A DNA stretch of 37,459 bases from Reyranella sp. (GTDB lineage: Bacteria; Pseudomonadota; Alphaproteobacteria; Reyranellales; Reyranellaceae). The stretch's first letter is position 1. Each line of letters begins with the position of its first letter. Of this stretch, positions 9,962 through 27,752 are shown piece after piece. Below the pieces are notes generated by a model. It searched no databases. It was not told the origin of the DNA and saw only the letters and a program-made list of their open reading frames with translations. Both the position numbers and the translations under genes were made by a program. The DNA is taken from the NCBI GenBank assembly GCA_029946105.1, contig JAQSDW010000111.1, positions 1 through 37,459 of the forward strand, read 5' to 3'.

Positions 9962-11206
9962 ATGAAAATCGAAATCCTCTGCACCGGCGACGAAATCCTG
10001 ACCGGCAAGACCATCAACACCAATTACAGTCACATGGCCCGACGACTCGCCGATGTCGGGCTGGACGTGCATTGGGGCACGACCGTCGGCGACGACCGCG
10101 TGAGCCTGCTCGAAGCGTTCCGCCAGGCAGGCGAACGCGCCGATGCGGTGATCGTGAATGGCGGTCTCGGCCCCACGGTCGACGACCTCTCCCAGGAGGT
10201 GGCCGCCGAGGCCTGCGGCGTGCCGCTGGTGCTGAGCGACTACTGGATGGAGCGCATGACCCAGTCCTACGCGCGGCGTGGACGGGTGATGCCGGCCAAC
10301 AACAAGAAGCAGGCGATGCTGCCGGAGAACGCCGAGTTCATCGACAATCCGATCGGCACGGCCTGCGGCTTCGCCGTGACCATCGGCCGCGCGCGTTTCC
10401 TGTTCACGCCGGGCGTGCCGCGCGAGATGCGCCGCATGCTGGACGAACAGGTGATCCCCCGCCTGCTGGCGTTGAGCGGCATCAGGGGCGTAACGAAGCT
10501 CAAGCGTTTCCACACTTTCGGCATCGGCGAGTCGCGTGCCGACGAGATGCTGGGCAACATCGAAGCTTTTAAGCAGGAAGGCGGCATCAAACTCGGCTTC
10601 CAGGCGCACTATCCGCAGCTCGAGACCAAGCTCGCCGTGCGCGGCAACGACGAGGCCGATCTCGCGGCGCGCCTGGATCCGGTCGAGGCCGAGGTCCGCA
10701 AGCGGCTGGGCAATTTCATCGTCGCCGAGGACGAGCAGACGCTCGGAGGCGTGATCCTGGAAAGCCTGACCGCGGGCGGCCACACGCTGGCGACCGCTGA
10801 GATGTTCACCTCGGGAAACATCGCCGCCCGGCTGGCACCTCTGCCCGGCGCCGAGAAGATCTTCAAGCGCGGCATGGTGGCGCGAGATCCCATCGAGCTT
10901 GGGCTGGCCGGCGAAGTCTCCGCGGAAGCGGCCGCAGCGATTGCCGAGGACCAGCGCGTGGCGAGCGGCGCCAGCCATGCGCTCACCGTTCTCATGCAGC
11001 TCGACGAGGGTGCGGACCGGCCCGACTTCGGCGCGACCATCTGCATCGGCATCGCCGATGCCAAGGGGACCGTCTCGCGCCAGGCCCGCCTGATCGGCGG
11101 CCGGGACTGGGTGCGCGTCGGTGCGGCCGAACTCGGACTCGACTGCCTGCGCCGTCACCTGCTCGGCCTGCCCGTCGACGAGCGCATCGATTTCGAAAGA
11201 CGCTAA
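9962..11206 (+). CDS. cinA: CinA-like protein with degraded deamidase domain
   Basis: This is a full-length (414-residue) CinA architecture. The N-terminal MoaB/MogA-like domain (1 to about 170) is well conserved: CTGDEILTGKTINTN, TTVGDDR, and NGGLGPTVDD, matching the ADP-ribose pyrophosphatase/molybdopterin-binding fold. The C-terminal domain corresponds to PncC, NMN amidohydrolase, whose active-site motif is normally T-A-E-S-C-T-G-G. Here the equivalent is LATAEMFTSGNIAARL (about 275-290), so the catalytic Ser and following Cys are replaced by Met-Phe. The usual G-G-V-V-x-Y segment is also altered to KRGMVARDP. NMN deamidase activity is therefore unlikely, while the rest of the fold appears retained. 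A 7-bp hairpin starts immediately after the stop. Confidence 0.85.
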   Translation: MKIEILCTGDEILTGKTINTNYSHMARRLADVGLDVHWGTTVGDDRVSLLEAFRQAGERADAVIVNGGLGPTVDDLSQEVAAEACGVPLVLSDYWMERMTQSYARRGRVMPANNKKQAMLPENAEFIDNPIGTACGFAVTIGRARFLFTPGVPREMRRMLDEQVIPRLLALSGIRGVTKLKRFHTFGIGESRADEMLGNIEAFKQEGGIKLGFQAHYPQLETKLAVRGNDEADLAARLDPVEAEVRKRLGNFIVAEDEQTLGGVILESLTAGGHTLATAEMFTSGNIAARLAPLPGAEKIFKRGMVARDPIELGLAGEVSAEAAAAIAEDQRVASGASHALTVLMQLDEGADRPDFGATICIGIADAKGTVSRQARLIGGRDWVRVGAAELGLDCLRRHLLGLPVDERIDFERR

Positions 11207-11225
11207 CTCTCCGCACGCCGGAGAG
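11207..11225 (+). other. hairpin immediately after the cinA stop
   Basis: CTCTCCG (11207-11213) pairs with CGGAGAG (11219-11225) around a CACGC loop. No U-tract follows (CCGTTGTG), so it may protect the 3' end or weakly terminate cinA transcription. Confidence 0.45.
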
Positions 11226-11240
11226 CCGTTGTGCTGATCG

Positions 11241-11381
11241 TGTCACACGCGCACATGTCACACCAAGTTGTGACATTTTCTGTGACATGCACATGCCCGG
11301 AGTCCGGGCCGAGCCCGGAGTCACGGGCTTTTTACGACGTCGTTTCTTCTTCTCGTGTCACAGCCCGGCGCGCCTGTGACA
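11241..11381. repeat. array of six TGTCACA/TGTGACA heptamers
   Basis: TGTCACA occurs at 11241, 11256 and 11356. Its complement TGTGACA occurs at 11269, 11281 and 11375. ATGTCACA (11255-11262) and TGTGACAT (11269-11276) form a perfect dyad with a 6-base spacer. TGTCACAG (11356-11363) and CTGTGACA (11374-11381) form another with a 10-base spacer. The copies at 11256 and 11281 can also pair, allowing alternative hairpins. Clustered regulator-binding sites or a structured leader RNA are both possible. Confidence 0.5.
11312..11333 (+). terminator. intrinsic terminator candidate
   Basis: AGCCCG (11312-11317) pairs with CGGGCT (11324-11329) around GAGTCA and runs into TTTTT (11329-11333). A second hairpin (CCCGG/CCGGG) lies just before it. 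It would end plus-strand transcripts from cinA, or a short leader RNA starting in the heptamer array. Confidence 0.55.
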
Positions 11382-11507
11382 GGCAGCGCGATGCGTCCGT
11401 TCCGACGTGTGTCATGCCGACGTTATCGGTGCTCGGTTGGGACGGGCTTTTAACCGGACTCAGTCGGCCTGGCGTGACGCACCATCCGAGGCAAGCTCCA
11501 CCCTCCG

Positions 11508-11526
11508 CTCGAGTGTCGAACTCGAG
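11508..11526. other. perfect 7-bp stem hairpin/dyad
   Basis: CTCGAGT (11508-11514) and ACTCGAG (11520-11526) are inverted around GTCGA. No T-run follows, so it is either a protein-binding dyad or RNA structure in the leader region. Confidence 0.35.
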
Positions 11527-11616
11527 GCGTGTCAAACCTGCGGCGTGCGCGGGCGGGTCTTGCTTATGTAGTTGATCTGGCGCGATCCAACCGCCAGCCT
11601 GCCGGAAGCGATAGCA

Positions 11617-11645
11617 TTGTTCTGCTGAACCTGCAACTTTATACC
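11617..11645 (+). promoter_or_regulatory. sigma70-like promoter candidate for the nitroreductase gene
   Basis: TTGTTC (11617-11622) and TATACC (11640-11645) are separated by 17 bases. It lies about 110 bases before the start codon, in the AT-richer part of the intergenic region. The Fur-like palindrome lies downstream of the predicted transcription start, compatible with repression by roadblock. Confidence 0.4.
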
Positions 11646-11690
11646 GCTCAAATCTGCGTGAAGGAATGCTGGCAGTGCAAGCACATGATA

Positions 11691-11709
11691 GCGAATGACA
11701 ATCATTCGC
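11691..11709. promoter_or_regulatory. Fur-box-like 19-bp palindrome
   Basis: GCGAATGACAATCATTCGC is a perfect 8-3-8 dyad. Aligned without gaps to the classical enterobacterial Fur consensus (GATAATGATAATCATTATC), 14 of 19 positions agree, including the AATGA-x-AATCATT core. It ends 47 bases before the nitroreductase ATG. A Fur-family metalloregulator (Fur/Mur, less likely Zur) is the natural candidate. The alphaproteobacterial consensus differs from the enterobacterial one, so the exact regulator is inference. Confidence 0.5.
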
Positions 11710-11756
11710 ATCTAGACTACTCTCCTCTCAAAGCTGGTCGAAGGAAAGGAACCCCG

Positions 11757-12401
11757 ATGAGCAACGCAAGCGCGGCGCGGAACGCCTTTGCTGCGGCAAC
11801 CGCCGAGCAACGCAATCGCCTGCGCACCCTGGATCTTCTGATATCCCGCCGGTCGACGGGCGCACTCACCGAACCCGCGCCACAAGCAGCCGAACTCGAC
11901 CTGATCCTCGAGGCCGGCCTGCACGTACCGGATCACGGCCGGCTACGGCCCTGGCGTTTCGTTCTGATCCGTGGCGAGGCCCGGACCGCCTTCGGCGAGT
12001 GCCTGGCGGACGCCGTCAAGGCCCGCGACCGCGCAGCACCTCCCGCCCTCCTCGACCGCTATCAGGCATGGACGCTGCGGAATTCCCTGCTGATCGCCGT
12101 CGGCGTCCGCATCCGCTCCGGCCATCCTGTCCCGGAGGTCGAGCAGGTGCTGTCGACCGGCGCCGCCGCGATGAACATGCTGAATGCGATTCACCTGCTG
12201 GGCTATGCCGGGATCTGGGTGACCGGCGCCAATGCCTACGATGCCCGGGTGAACGAGGCTCTTGGCTTCCGGGCGCCGAACAAGCTGGTCGGCTTTCTCG
12301 CTGTCGGCACGCCGGTCAATGTCCCCGAGCCGGTGCCGGCTTCGCAGCGGCCAGACCGGTCGGCACATGTCTTCGAATGGAGCGCGCCAACAGCGGGATG
12401 A
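11757..12401 (+). CDS. YdjA-like nitroreductase-family protein
   Basis: This 214-residue FMN-dependent nitroreductase-fold protein starts at ATG 11757, with AAGGAAAGGAA in front. The frame is open further upstream but has no second signal and the family begins here. Key blocks are LLISRRSTGAL (about 27-37, FMN phosphate binding), LHVPDHGRLRPWRF (about 57-70, the YdjA/TM1586-type motif) and the late GYAGIWVTGANAYD (about 155-168). It is distinct from bluB, which faces it with 59 bases between the stops. It would reduce quinones or nitroaromatics with NAD(P)H, but the physiological substrate is unknown. The Fur-like box suggests metal-responsive expression. Whether it has any tie to the B12 locus is unclear; adjacency is the only hint. 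Confidence 0.85.
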   Translation: MSNASAARNAFAAATAEQRNRLRTLDLLISRRSTGALTEPAPQAAELDLILEAGLHVPDHGRLRPWRFVLIRGEARTAFGECLADAVKARDRAAPPALLDRYQAWTLRNSLLIAVGVRIRSGHPVPEVEQVLSTGAAAMNMLNAIHLLGYAGIWVTGANAYDARVNEALGFRAPNKLVGFLAVGTPVNVPEPVPASQRPDRSAHVFEWSAPTAG

Positions 12402-27538: not shown

Positions 27539-27552
27539 TGAATGTACCATAC

Positions 27553-27716
27553 GACGGCAGGTCTCCTGGCTCTCGGATCCTCGCCGCAGGCCCCCTTCCC
27601 GGTTTCCCAGTGGTGTCTTGGCCGTTGGCTCACCGACTACAGTTGCGGGGGCAGCCGCGGATTGAGGCCTACGCCTCTGGCCGCGTTCCCTTTTGAGCCC
27701 CGCGAGGGGCACCGTC
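27553..27716 (-). ncRNA. cobalamin (adenosylcobalamin) riboswitch
   Basis: Read on the minus strand, the order is the P1 5' strand GACGG (27716-27712), GGTGCC, AAAAGGGAA, the conserved GCTGCCCCCGCAACTGT core, GGTGAGCC, and the B12 box AGCCAGGAGACCTGCC (27571-27556). P1 closes with CCGTC (27557-27553). This is a complete class-I B12 aptamer. It precedes cbtB and, by operon continuity, the corrin-ring genes. High adenosylcobalamin should reduce expression of cobalt uptake and possibly the whole run. A matching promoter ends just before its first base. Confidence 0.95.
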
Positions 27717-27722
27717 CCGGCC

Positions 27723-27752
27723 TTGATACGGGCCACAGCAAAGCCCCGTCAA
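27723..27752 (-). promoter_or_regulatory. promoter of the riboswitch/cbt-cob transcript
   Basis: On the minus strand TTGACG (27752-27747) and TATCAA (27728-27723) are 18 bases apart. A start about seven bases further would fall at or near 27716, the first base of the riboswitch P1 stem. This agreement supports both calls. Confidence 0.6.

Follow-up and report, generated by a model that had tools for sequence, protein, structure and literature searches.

A heptamer cluster behind cinA in Reyranella lies in one copy of a structured, dispersed element found mostly at gene 3′ ends

Why do six copies of one heptamer lie directly behind the cinA gene of a Reyranella species? In the window—the whole 37,459-base stretch of DNA that was analysed—the exact words TGTCACA/TGTGACA occur at 11241-11247(+), 11256-11262(+), 11269-11275(-), 11281-11287(-), 11356-11362(+), and 11375-11381(-). 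The original prediction had placed all six within these 141 bases, and an exact search of the window located them there and nowhere else. Shuffling the whole window gave a mean of 1.95 heptamers, with six or more in 2 of 100 shuffles. Scaled to 141 bases, this mean is about 0.007, and therefore it is the clustering, not the total count, that is exceptional. The perfect longer dyads described earlier are likewise present: 11255-11262/11269-11276 and 11239-11247/11281-11289 are nested in the computed fold, and 11356-11363/11374-11381 was identified by reading. Alternative pairing between copies is possible as well, since 11256-11262 also matches 11281-11287 perfectly. On its left the block adjoins the 3′ end of cinA (Pfam MoCF_biosynth, CinA, and CinA_KH), and on its right about 375 bases separate it from the start of a nitroreductase gene. 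Two readings had been offered for it, a multi-site operator and a structured regulatory RNA.

The positions 11207-11340, which form the first 134 nt of the element described below, fold far better than expected (z -5.37; 0 of 200 shuffles as good). In order, the fold contains the left hairpin, the two nested heptamer stems, a stem at 11295-11328, and TTTTT. The terminator candidate formerly drawn at 11312-11333 thus holds as a terminator-like structure, while its extent has to be enlarged to the stem 11295-11328 and the T-run 11329-11333. According to this model, 11295-11333 would be intrinsic-terminator-like for transcripts arriving from cinA. An automatic terminator scan reported 11255-11276 only, and 11312-11333 is absent from its output. 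A promoter scan of 11150-11780 detected no sigma-70-type promoter. A 114-aa ORF covers 11231-11575; it was not treated as a gene, because other copies of the unit show indels and changes of class.

Table 1. Parts of the element copy in the window (positions are those of the window)
Feature	Position	Strand	Evidence
Whole element copy, 478 bp	11207-11684	+	Ends found again in further copies, in own genome and relatives; missing from the syntenic G042 site
Left-end hairpin CTCTCCG-CACGC-CGGAGAG	11207-11225	+	56 copies, picked for pattern and pairing: 333/392 cells Watson-Crick
Outer heptamer arm (heptamer 1), partner 11281-11289	11239-11247	+	Fold; heptamer search
Inner heptamer arm (heptamer 2), partner 11269-11276, or 11281-11287 as in aligned copies	11255-11262	+	Fold; A2 covariation
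Heptamer 3, complements heptamer 2 in window copy; in many copies GAGACA or unrelated	11269-11276	+	Heptamer search; A2 block; fold
Heptamer 4, the conserved 3′ arm	11281-11289	+	Heptamer search; A2; fold
GC-rich stem-loop followed by TTTTT	11295-11333	+	Fold; many aligned copies have a similar GGCTTTT stem-loop
Third dyad, heptamers 5 and 6, 8-bp arms, 10-nt spacer	11356-11381	+	Heptamer search; several copies keep TGTCACAGCCCGGCGCGCCTGTGACA
Conserved core common to classes: hairpin 11577-11597 and, on the minus strand, the 13-mer GCAGGTTCAGCAG	11562-11639	-	R1 match, E 3.3e-15; alignment A1
Right terminal module, end TGCTGGCAGTGCAAGCAC, in only part of the copies	11640-11684	+	Copies aligned and compared

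The left module of this copy begins on the base right after the cinA stop codon. At its other side, ahead of the nitroreductase start, lies the palindrome GCGAATGACAATCATTCGC (11691-11709), which we take to be Fur-box-like; a very similar palindrome stands upstream of the nitroreductase gene in the related genome G042. Elsewhere in the window, a cobalamin riboswitch was found at 27539-27729 on the minus strand (107.5 bits).

Is the block a feature of this locus alone? Searching the window’s own genome (G000) with 11207-11400 returned 22 matches including the window copy, seven of which span at least 151 nt. A longer query returned 28, again including the window copy, and delimited the unit as 11207 to about 11684. 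The pattern TGTCACA-N(0-30)-TGTGACA has 32 one-strand matches, some of them overlapping, as compared to one for the reversed-pattern control. When 18 copies were aligned, they had in common the left end, which bears the hairpin CTCYYCG-CACGC-CGRRGAG, and, close to the right end, a core, while the middle depended on the class. Additional loci added more classes, and in some of the aligned copies (L054, L070) the TGTCACA block is wholly missing. Across copies, the element measures about 300-550 bp. The core was modelled from alignment A1, which kept 62 of 90 pattern matches (four unrelated loci, near-duplicates, and L088 and L103 were removed), and the covariance model of this right-hand core, R1, has 78 positions. 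R1 matches 43 places in the own genome, the weakest of which share little beyond the core region. The terminator-like stem exists, as would be expected if the block were a chance cluster or a degenerate terminator pair behind cinA, but long copies of the same unit, 79-92% identical, lie elsewhere in the genome; that account is already refuted, and we give it practically no weight.

Next, we examined what is kept in the heptamer arms. For this purpose, 51 copies were aligned without reference to structure and the block was cut out (alignment A2); 48 were kept, the others being one with 31 letters and two without the block. In all 48, the block is exactly 32 letters long, mostly of the form N4-ACA-CC-N16-TGT-N4′. 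Among the 35 distinct hairpins, 91.8% of the cells are paired, as compared to 66.5% in shuffled sets and 7-56% when the arms are slid against each other. Changes on both sides of a pair occur in 49 cells (18.4 in shuffles), and covariation scores 0.554, as compared to 0.164 in shuffles. None of 500 shuffles, which leave relatedness in, reaches the observed paired fraction, double-change cells, or covariation score; the other two of the five measures, pairs with double changes and further pair types, are not above the shuffles. The arm words differ from copy to copy (TGTCACA, GGGCCCA, GTGGACA, GCGCACA, GCGGACA, and GGGCACA, each with its matching other arm) while the pairing stays, which is why we read selection as one that keeps arm complementarity rather than the letters TGTCACA.

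In the same copy, the arm words recur at a mean of 1.52 extra occurrences, as compared to 0.34 for arms of another type. An extra own arm is found in 35 of 52 copies, and the effect is strong for TGTC and GGGC arms only, so that a concerted change of all heptamers within one copy is only partly supported. The hairpin sets used for these recurrence counts and for the mismatch counts below were picked partly by pairing, and their totals therefore lean towards pairing; A2 was not picked in this way. A hand-set list of 22 loci, consisting of other taxa or chance matches, was left out of the slot, hairpin, arm-recurrence, and neighbour counts.

How, then, did the element come to lie behind cinA? 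A cinA match was obtained in 29 other genomes, and behind it not one of them carries a heptamer, the left-end hairpin, or the 13-mer in exact form; the sequence read covered 700 nt in 14 genomes and 314 in one of a first 15, and 700 nt in 12 and 375 and 201 in two of a further 14. G043 and G045 contain a match to the 13-mer with up to two mismatches, and the other features of the element are absent there. In G042, the order cinA, palindrome, nitroreductase is kept and the element is missing. Of the 30 genomes, G000 alone has the copy at cinA, and judged by these comparisons the window copy is an insertion.

These results bear directly on the operator, in which a DNA-binding protein would read the heptamers and control cinA or the nitroreductase gene. 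The six copies, the strict Watson-Crick dyads, and the wobble mismatches without strand bias (7 A-C against 9 G-T) would suit such a protein, and a trans-acting reader could explain why arm words recur within a copy. However, that recurrence is strong in two arm types only, the arm letters vary among copies at constant pairing, all 29 other genomes lack the block behind cinA, it sits at the 3′ end of cinA and finishes some 375 bases ahead of the nitroreductase gene, and the promoter scan found no sigma-70-type promoter nearby. A CRP-type operator was rejected on the heptamer order: the CRP consensus is TGTGA-N6-TCACA, and in each close pair TCACA comes before TGTGA. The operator reading is thus not supported: the block belongs to a dispersed element 478 bp long, and we consider control through the heptamers highly improbable. 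The conservation in relatives that was to decide the matter is lacking at the cinA locus and appears instead, across other copies of the element, as pairing around an 18-nt loop. The structured regulatory RNA fares better in one respect: a structured nucleic acid is borne out at the level of pairing, by A2 and the fold, while a structure specific to cinA is not, the block being part of a multi-copy repeat.

A second locus, between convergent genes for mltB and a lipid kinase (names taken from the translations, without a family search), extends the insertion evidence. In G018, G042, G071, G022, and G054, the two stop codons overlap (gap -4). In the same slot, G000, G021, and G076 have TGTCACA-class copies of 497, 458, and 467 nt, G019 has a 344-nt copy without heptamers, and G023 has a 298-nt member of another class with the core; G065 has a 319-nt insert that was put in the family by eye and is unmatched by the core pattern. 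The classes other than the TGTCACA class lack the TGTCACA block. Thirty loci were examined here, 18 of them in detail; the others had different genes or inserts there, or had no gene on the right that could be reached. Among slots that were compared because the fetched loci bear elements, L069/L105, L103/L147, L113/L139, and L032/L160 have flanks that are 87-91% identical, yet their elements do not match at E 1e-8; L091/L099/L162, by contrast, have kept alignable copies in one slot. Same-flank slots thus hold both alignable copies and unalignable classes, and therefore persistence and replacement both occur.

This evidence also bears on the idea of a vertically inherited, non-mobile 3′ gene module that is converted among copies instead of inserting. 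Several species do carry elements in the same slots, and copies from one slot can align (L069/L173, L091/L099/L162). Yet bare empty sites occur in G018, G042, and G071, all of which have core matches, the cinA copy is confined to one genome of 30, and classes that share a slot (L069/L105, L103/L147) have no alignable middle. We regard such a module as unlikely.

Where do the copies sit? Both neighbouring genes were called for 37 of 43 copies in the own genome, using a gene caller trained on 22 Pfam-supported genes (7,284 codons) that recovers cinA and the nitroreductase gene: 20 copies lie between convergent genes, 13 in sense behind a tandem gene, two in antisense, and two between divergent genes. 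In the other genomes, where both neighbours were called for 51 of 71 copies, the corresponding numbers are 39, 11, 1, and 0. Pooling both sets (88 copies) gives 59 in convergent gaps, 24 that follow a tandem gene in sense, three in antisense, and two in divergent gaps. Convergent pairs cannot show orientation, and so only the tandem cases are informative; 24 of 27 (13/15 own, 11/12 other) are in sense, with a binomial value of 2.5e-5, although related slots do not count as fully independent cases. For many copies, the distance from the stop codon to the left module is no more than a few tens of bases. The genes on the left are ordinary: 19 of 20 proteins match common Pfam families with metabolic, transport, stress, and repair functions (MoaE, MFS, Hsp33, UvrB, and aldehyde dehydrogenase among them), one has no match, and the Pfam scan detected no mobile-type family among the 20.

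Which strand carries the structure? Read on the plus strand, the mismatches of the left-end hairpin are A-C in 51 cells and G-T in two, with six others; those of the core hairpin are A-C in 118 and G-T in 15, with 42 others. The third hairpin leans the same way (16 against 5), while the heptamer hairpin has no strand bias (7 against 9). Related copies are not independent in these counts, in which several positions per hairpin agree. An A-C mismatch on the plus strand corresponds to G-U on the minus strand, and the bias thus fits either a minus-strand RNA or the recognition of folded minus-strand DNA. In contrast, folding energy shows no strand preference: over the whole element, the minus strand is lower in 24 of 51 copies, and the window copy folds slightly better on the plus (z -2.67) than on the minus strand (z -1.44). 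The whole-element consensus fold was not used for strand choice, because both strands score alike.

The lean raises the alternative that the copies are a family of minus-strand RNA genes, in which the 13-mer and a TGnTATnAT-like word would form the promoter of an RNA of about 400 nt, running to the left-end hairpin and convergent with the neighbouring gene. Besides the wobble asymmetry of the left-end and core hairpins, the 13-mer is nearly invariant in A1 and is followed by a TATNAT-like word. Against such genes stand the equal folding energies and the weaker minus-strand z of the window copy, a T-run hairpin after the supposed start in many copies, the negative promoter scan, and the lack of an Rfam match, and we consider them improbable.

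How widely is the family distributed? Under stricter filters, R1 matches occur in 17 of 61 Reyranella genomes: 15 have 9-61 matches, two have one, and 44 have none. The best nine mltB matches after the own genome all come from genomes with core matches, and the family therefore looks restricted to a subclade of Reyranella. A pattern scan of a species-genome collection returned 95 stretches; among the 80 listed, those with the family’s spacing are mostly from Reyranella or unspecified alphaproteobacteria, and the rest, from other taxa, look like chance matches. Viral contigs contain the pattern zero times and plasmids gave no match, leaving a plasmid or viral origin rejected. The element has no covariance-model match in Rfam, the only hit, to an lncRNA, falling well short of that family’s gathering score with E 3.1. 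We found no description of this family among the open-licence papers listed for Reyranella or for repeats and terminators in general.

Among known systems, bacterial intergenic repeats that are structured and dispersed come closest, for example bcr1 and the stem-loop families described in PMC2267715; the Bcr1 model given there is 167 bp long, with 31 intergenic members, 21 of them complete. Like these, bcr1, ERIC, BOX, and the stem-loop families, the Reyranella element is non-coding, multi-copy, intergenic, and lineage-restricted, with a common stem-loop structure. They differ in that the Reyranella element is longer (about 300-550 bp), has multiple classes with different middles around a common core, has arms re-lettered by class, and is strongly placed at gene 3′ ends. 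What defines such repeats is found here too: many non-coding copies, a structure backed by covariation in which three of five measures lie beyond all shuffles, and an intergenic, lineage-restricted distribution.

Other mobile DNA is less similar. MITEs and non-autonomous IS derivatives also lack coding capacity, insert as discrete units, and reach tens of copies, but the Reyranella element has no terminal inverted repeat, and neither a general target duplication nor a parent transposase was noticed. Comparison of the ends by reading showed no inverted repeat between the left CTCTCCGCACGCC and the reverse complement of the right GTGCTTGCACTGCC; no target-site duplication was evident in the flanks by reading; and no coding copy, as an autonomous parent would be, was noticed among the loci read. 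CTAG stands on both sides of the mltB copy of G000, at this one site, and not in G021, G076, or G019.

REP/REPIN hairpin repeats, which RAYT (Y1) transposases mobilise, are DNA repeats that sit at gene ends, as here. The Reyranella element is much longer and lacks the end tags GTAG/CGTC; REP families (PMC3733652) are thus unlike it in size and tags. In the own genome, whose assembly is 97.95% complete, Y1_Tnp (PF01797) has zero matches, and an IS200/RAYT derivation was rejected. A group II intron or retroelement derivation was rejected as well: RVT_1 is absent from the own genome and occurs in 4 of 17 core-positive as compared to 16 of 44 core-negative genomes, and reverse transcriptase is thus not associated with the element. 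Integron attC sites and IS200/IS605 ends are alike in the way of working only, as folded-strand sites in which structure counts over sequence. An attC lies behind its gene, but the cassette array of integrons is not seen with the Reyranella element, nor is a Y1 enzyme linked to it in the own genome.

Taken together, the element is multi-copy and inserted, lies mostly at gene 3′ ends, and keeps its arms complementary. Dozens of copies mostly behind gene ends point to a mobile-type structured repeat, not to a control switch of cinA. We consider it likely that the heptamers make up the hairpin array in a single copy of this non-autonomous, structured, dispersed element, and that the element can act as a portable 3′ UTR and terminator. 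In our model, the element inserts behind a stop codon, and its left part would then be transcribed as the 3′ UTR of the upstream gene. The transcript would fold into the heptamer hairpins, and transcription would end at the T-run stem-loop 11295-11333; both transcription and termination are suggested by the fold and the T-run. The right-end core, with its 13-mer and hairpin, may block transcription coming in on the other strand, or may serve as the recognition site for mobilisation.

Several observations sit uneasily with this portable 3′ UTR. The minus-strand G-U lean (51:2, 118:15) misfits a plus-strand 3′ UTR as the sole selected form, and folding energy has no strand preference. At the mltB slot, there are classes without the TGTCACA block; two of the five covariation measures stay within the shuffle range; and five of 88 copies (three antisense tandem, two divergent) are off the expected gene-end sense. 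No mobilising enzyme was found, terminal inverted repeats are absent, and a general target duplication was not evident.

More speculatively, these repeats could be mobile elements of a kind not described before, dedicated to the 3′ ends of genes. The classes, with a common core and re-lettered arms, would be rivals for stop-codon slots in a fixed orientation; they would be moved in trans by an enzyme reading the end hairpins on one DNA strand, on which the mismatches become G-T, and would give the host gene its terminator. We put this forward as a rather doubtful extension. What looked like an operator is a copy of a dispersed family without an Rfam match, and related species provide natural replicates, in which one and the same gene end is either bare or occupied by elements that differ in sequence. 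These replicates allow tests of whether repeats of this type determine where transcription ends, and of how they choose their stop-codon neighbourhoods.

Further repeats were noted at gene ends. In the own genome, the weak core matches L256-L268 belong to further classes, with only the core region in common with the window copy and, in several copies, repeated words of the GTGCCAC or TGTCCAC type downstream of stop codons. L020-L030, also in the own genome, form a further TGTCACA class that begins CGTGTCACA...GTGTCACACCAAG, mostly lacks the left-end hairpin, and often lies directly behind a stop codon. Right behind the cinA stop codon, L184 (G014) and L191 (G009) have other short direct repeats, of TTTCCGG-type and TTCCCGCAA-type words, which are possibly other gene-end repeat families. 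Finally, in two core-negative genomes, L303 (G051) and L299 (G047) have a different dispersed palindrome, CTCATCCTGAGGAGCG...CGCTCCTCAG, behind mltB.
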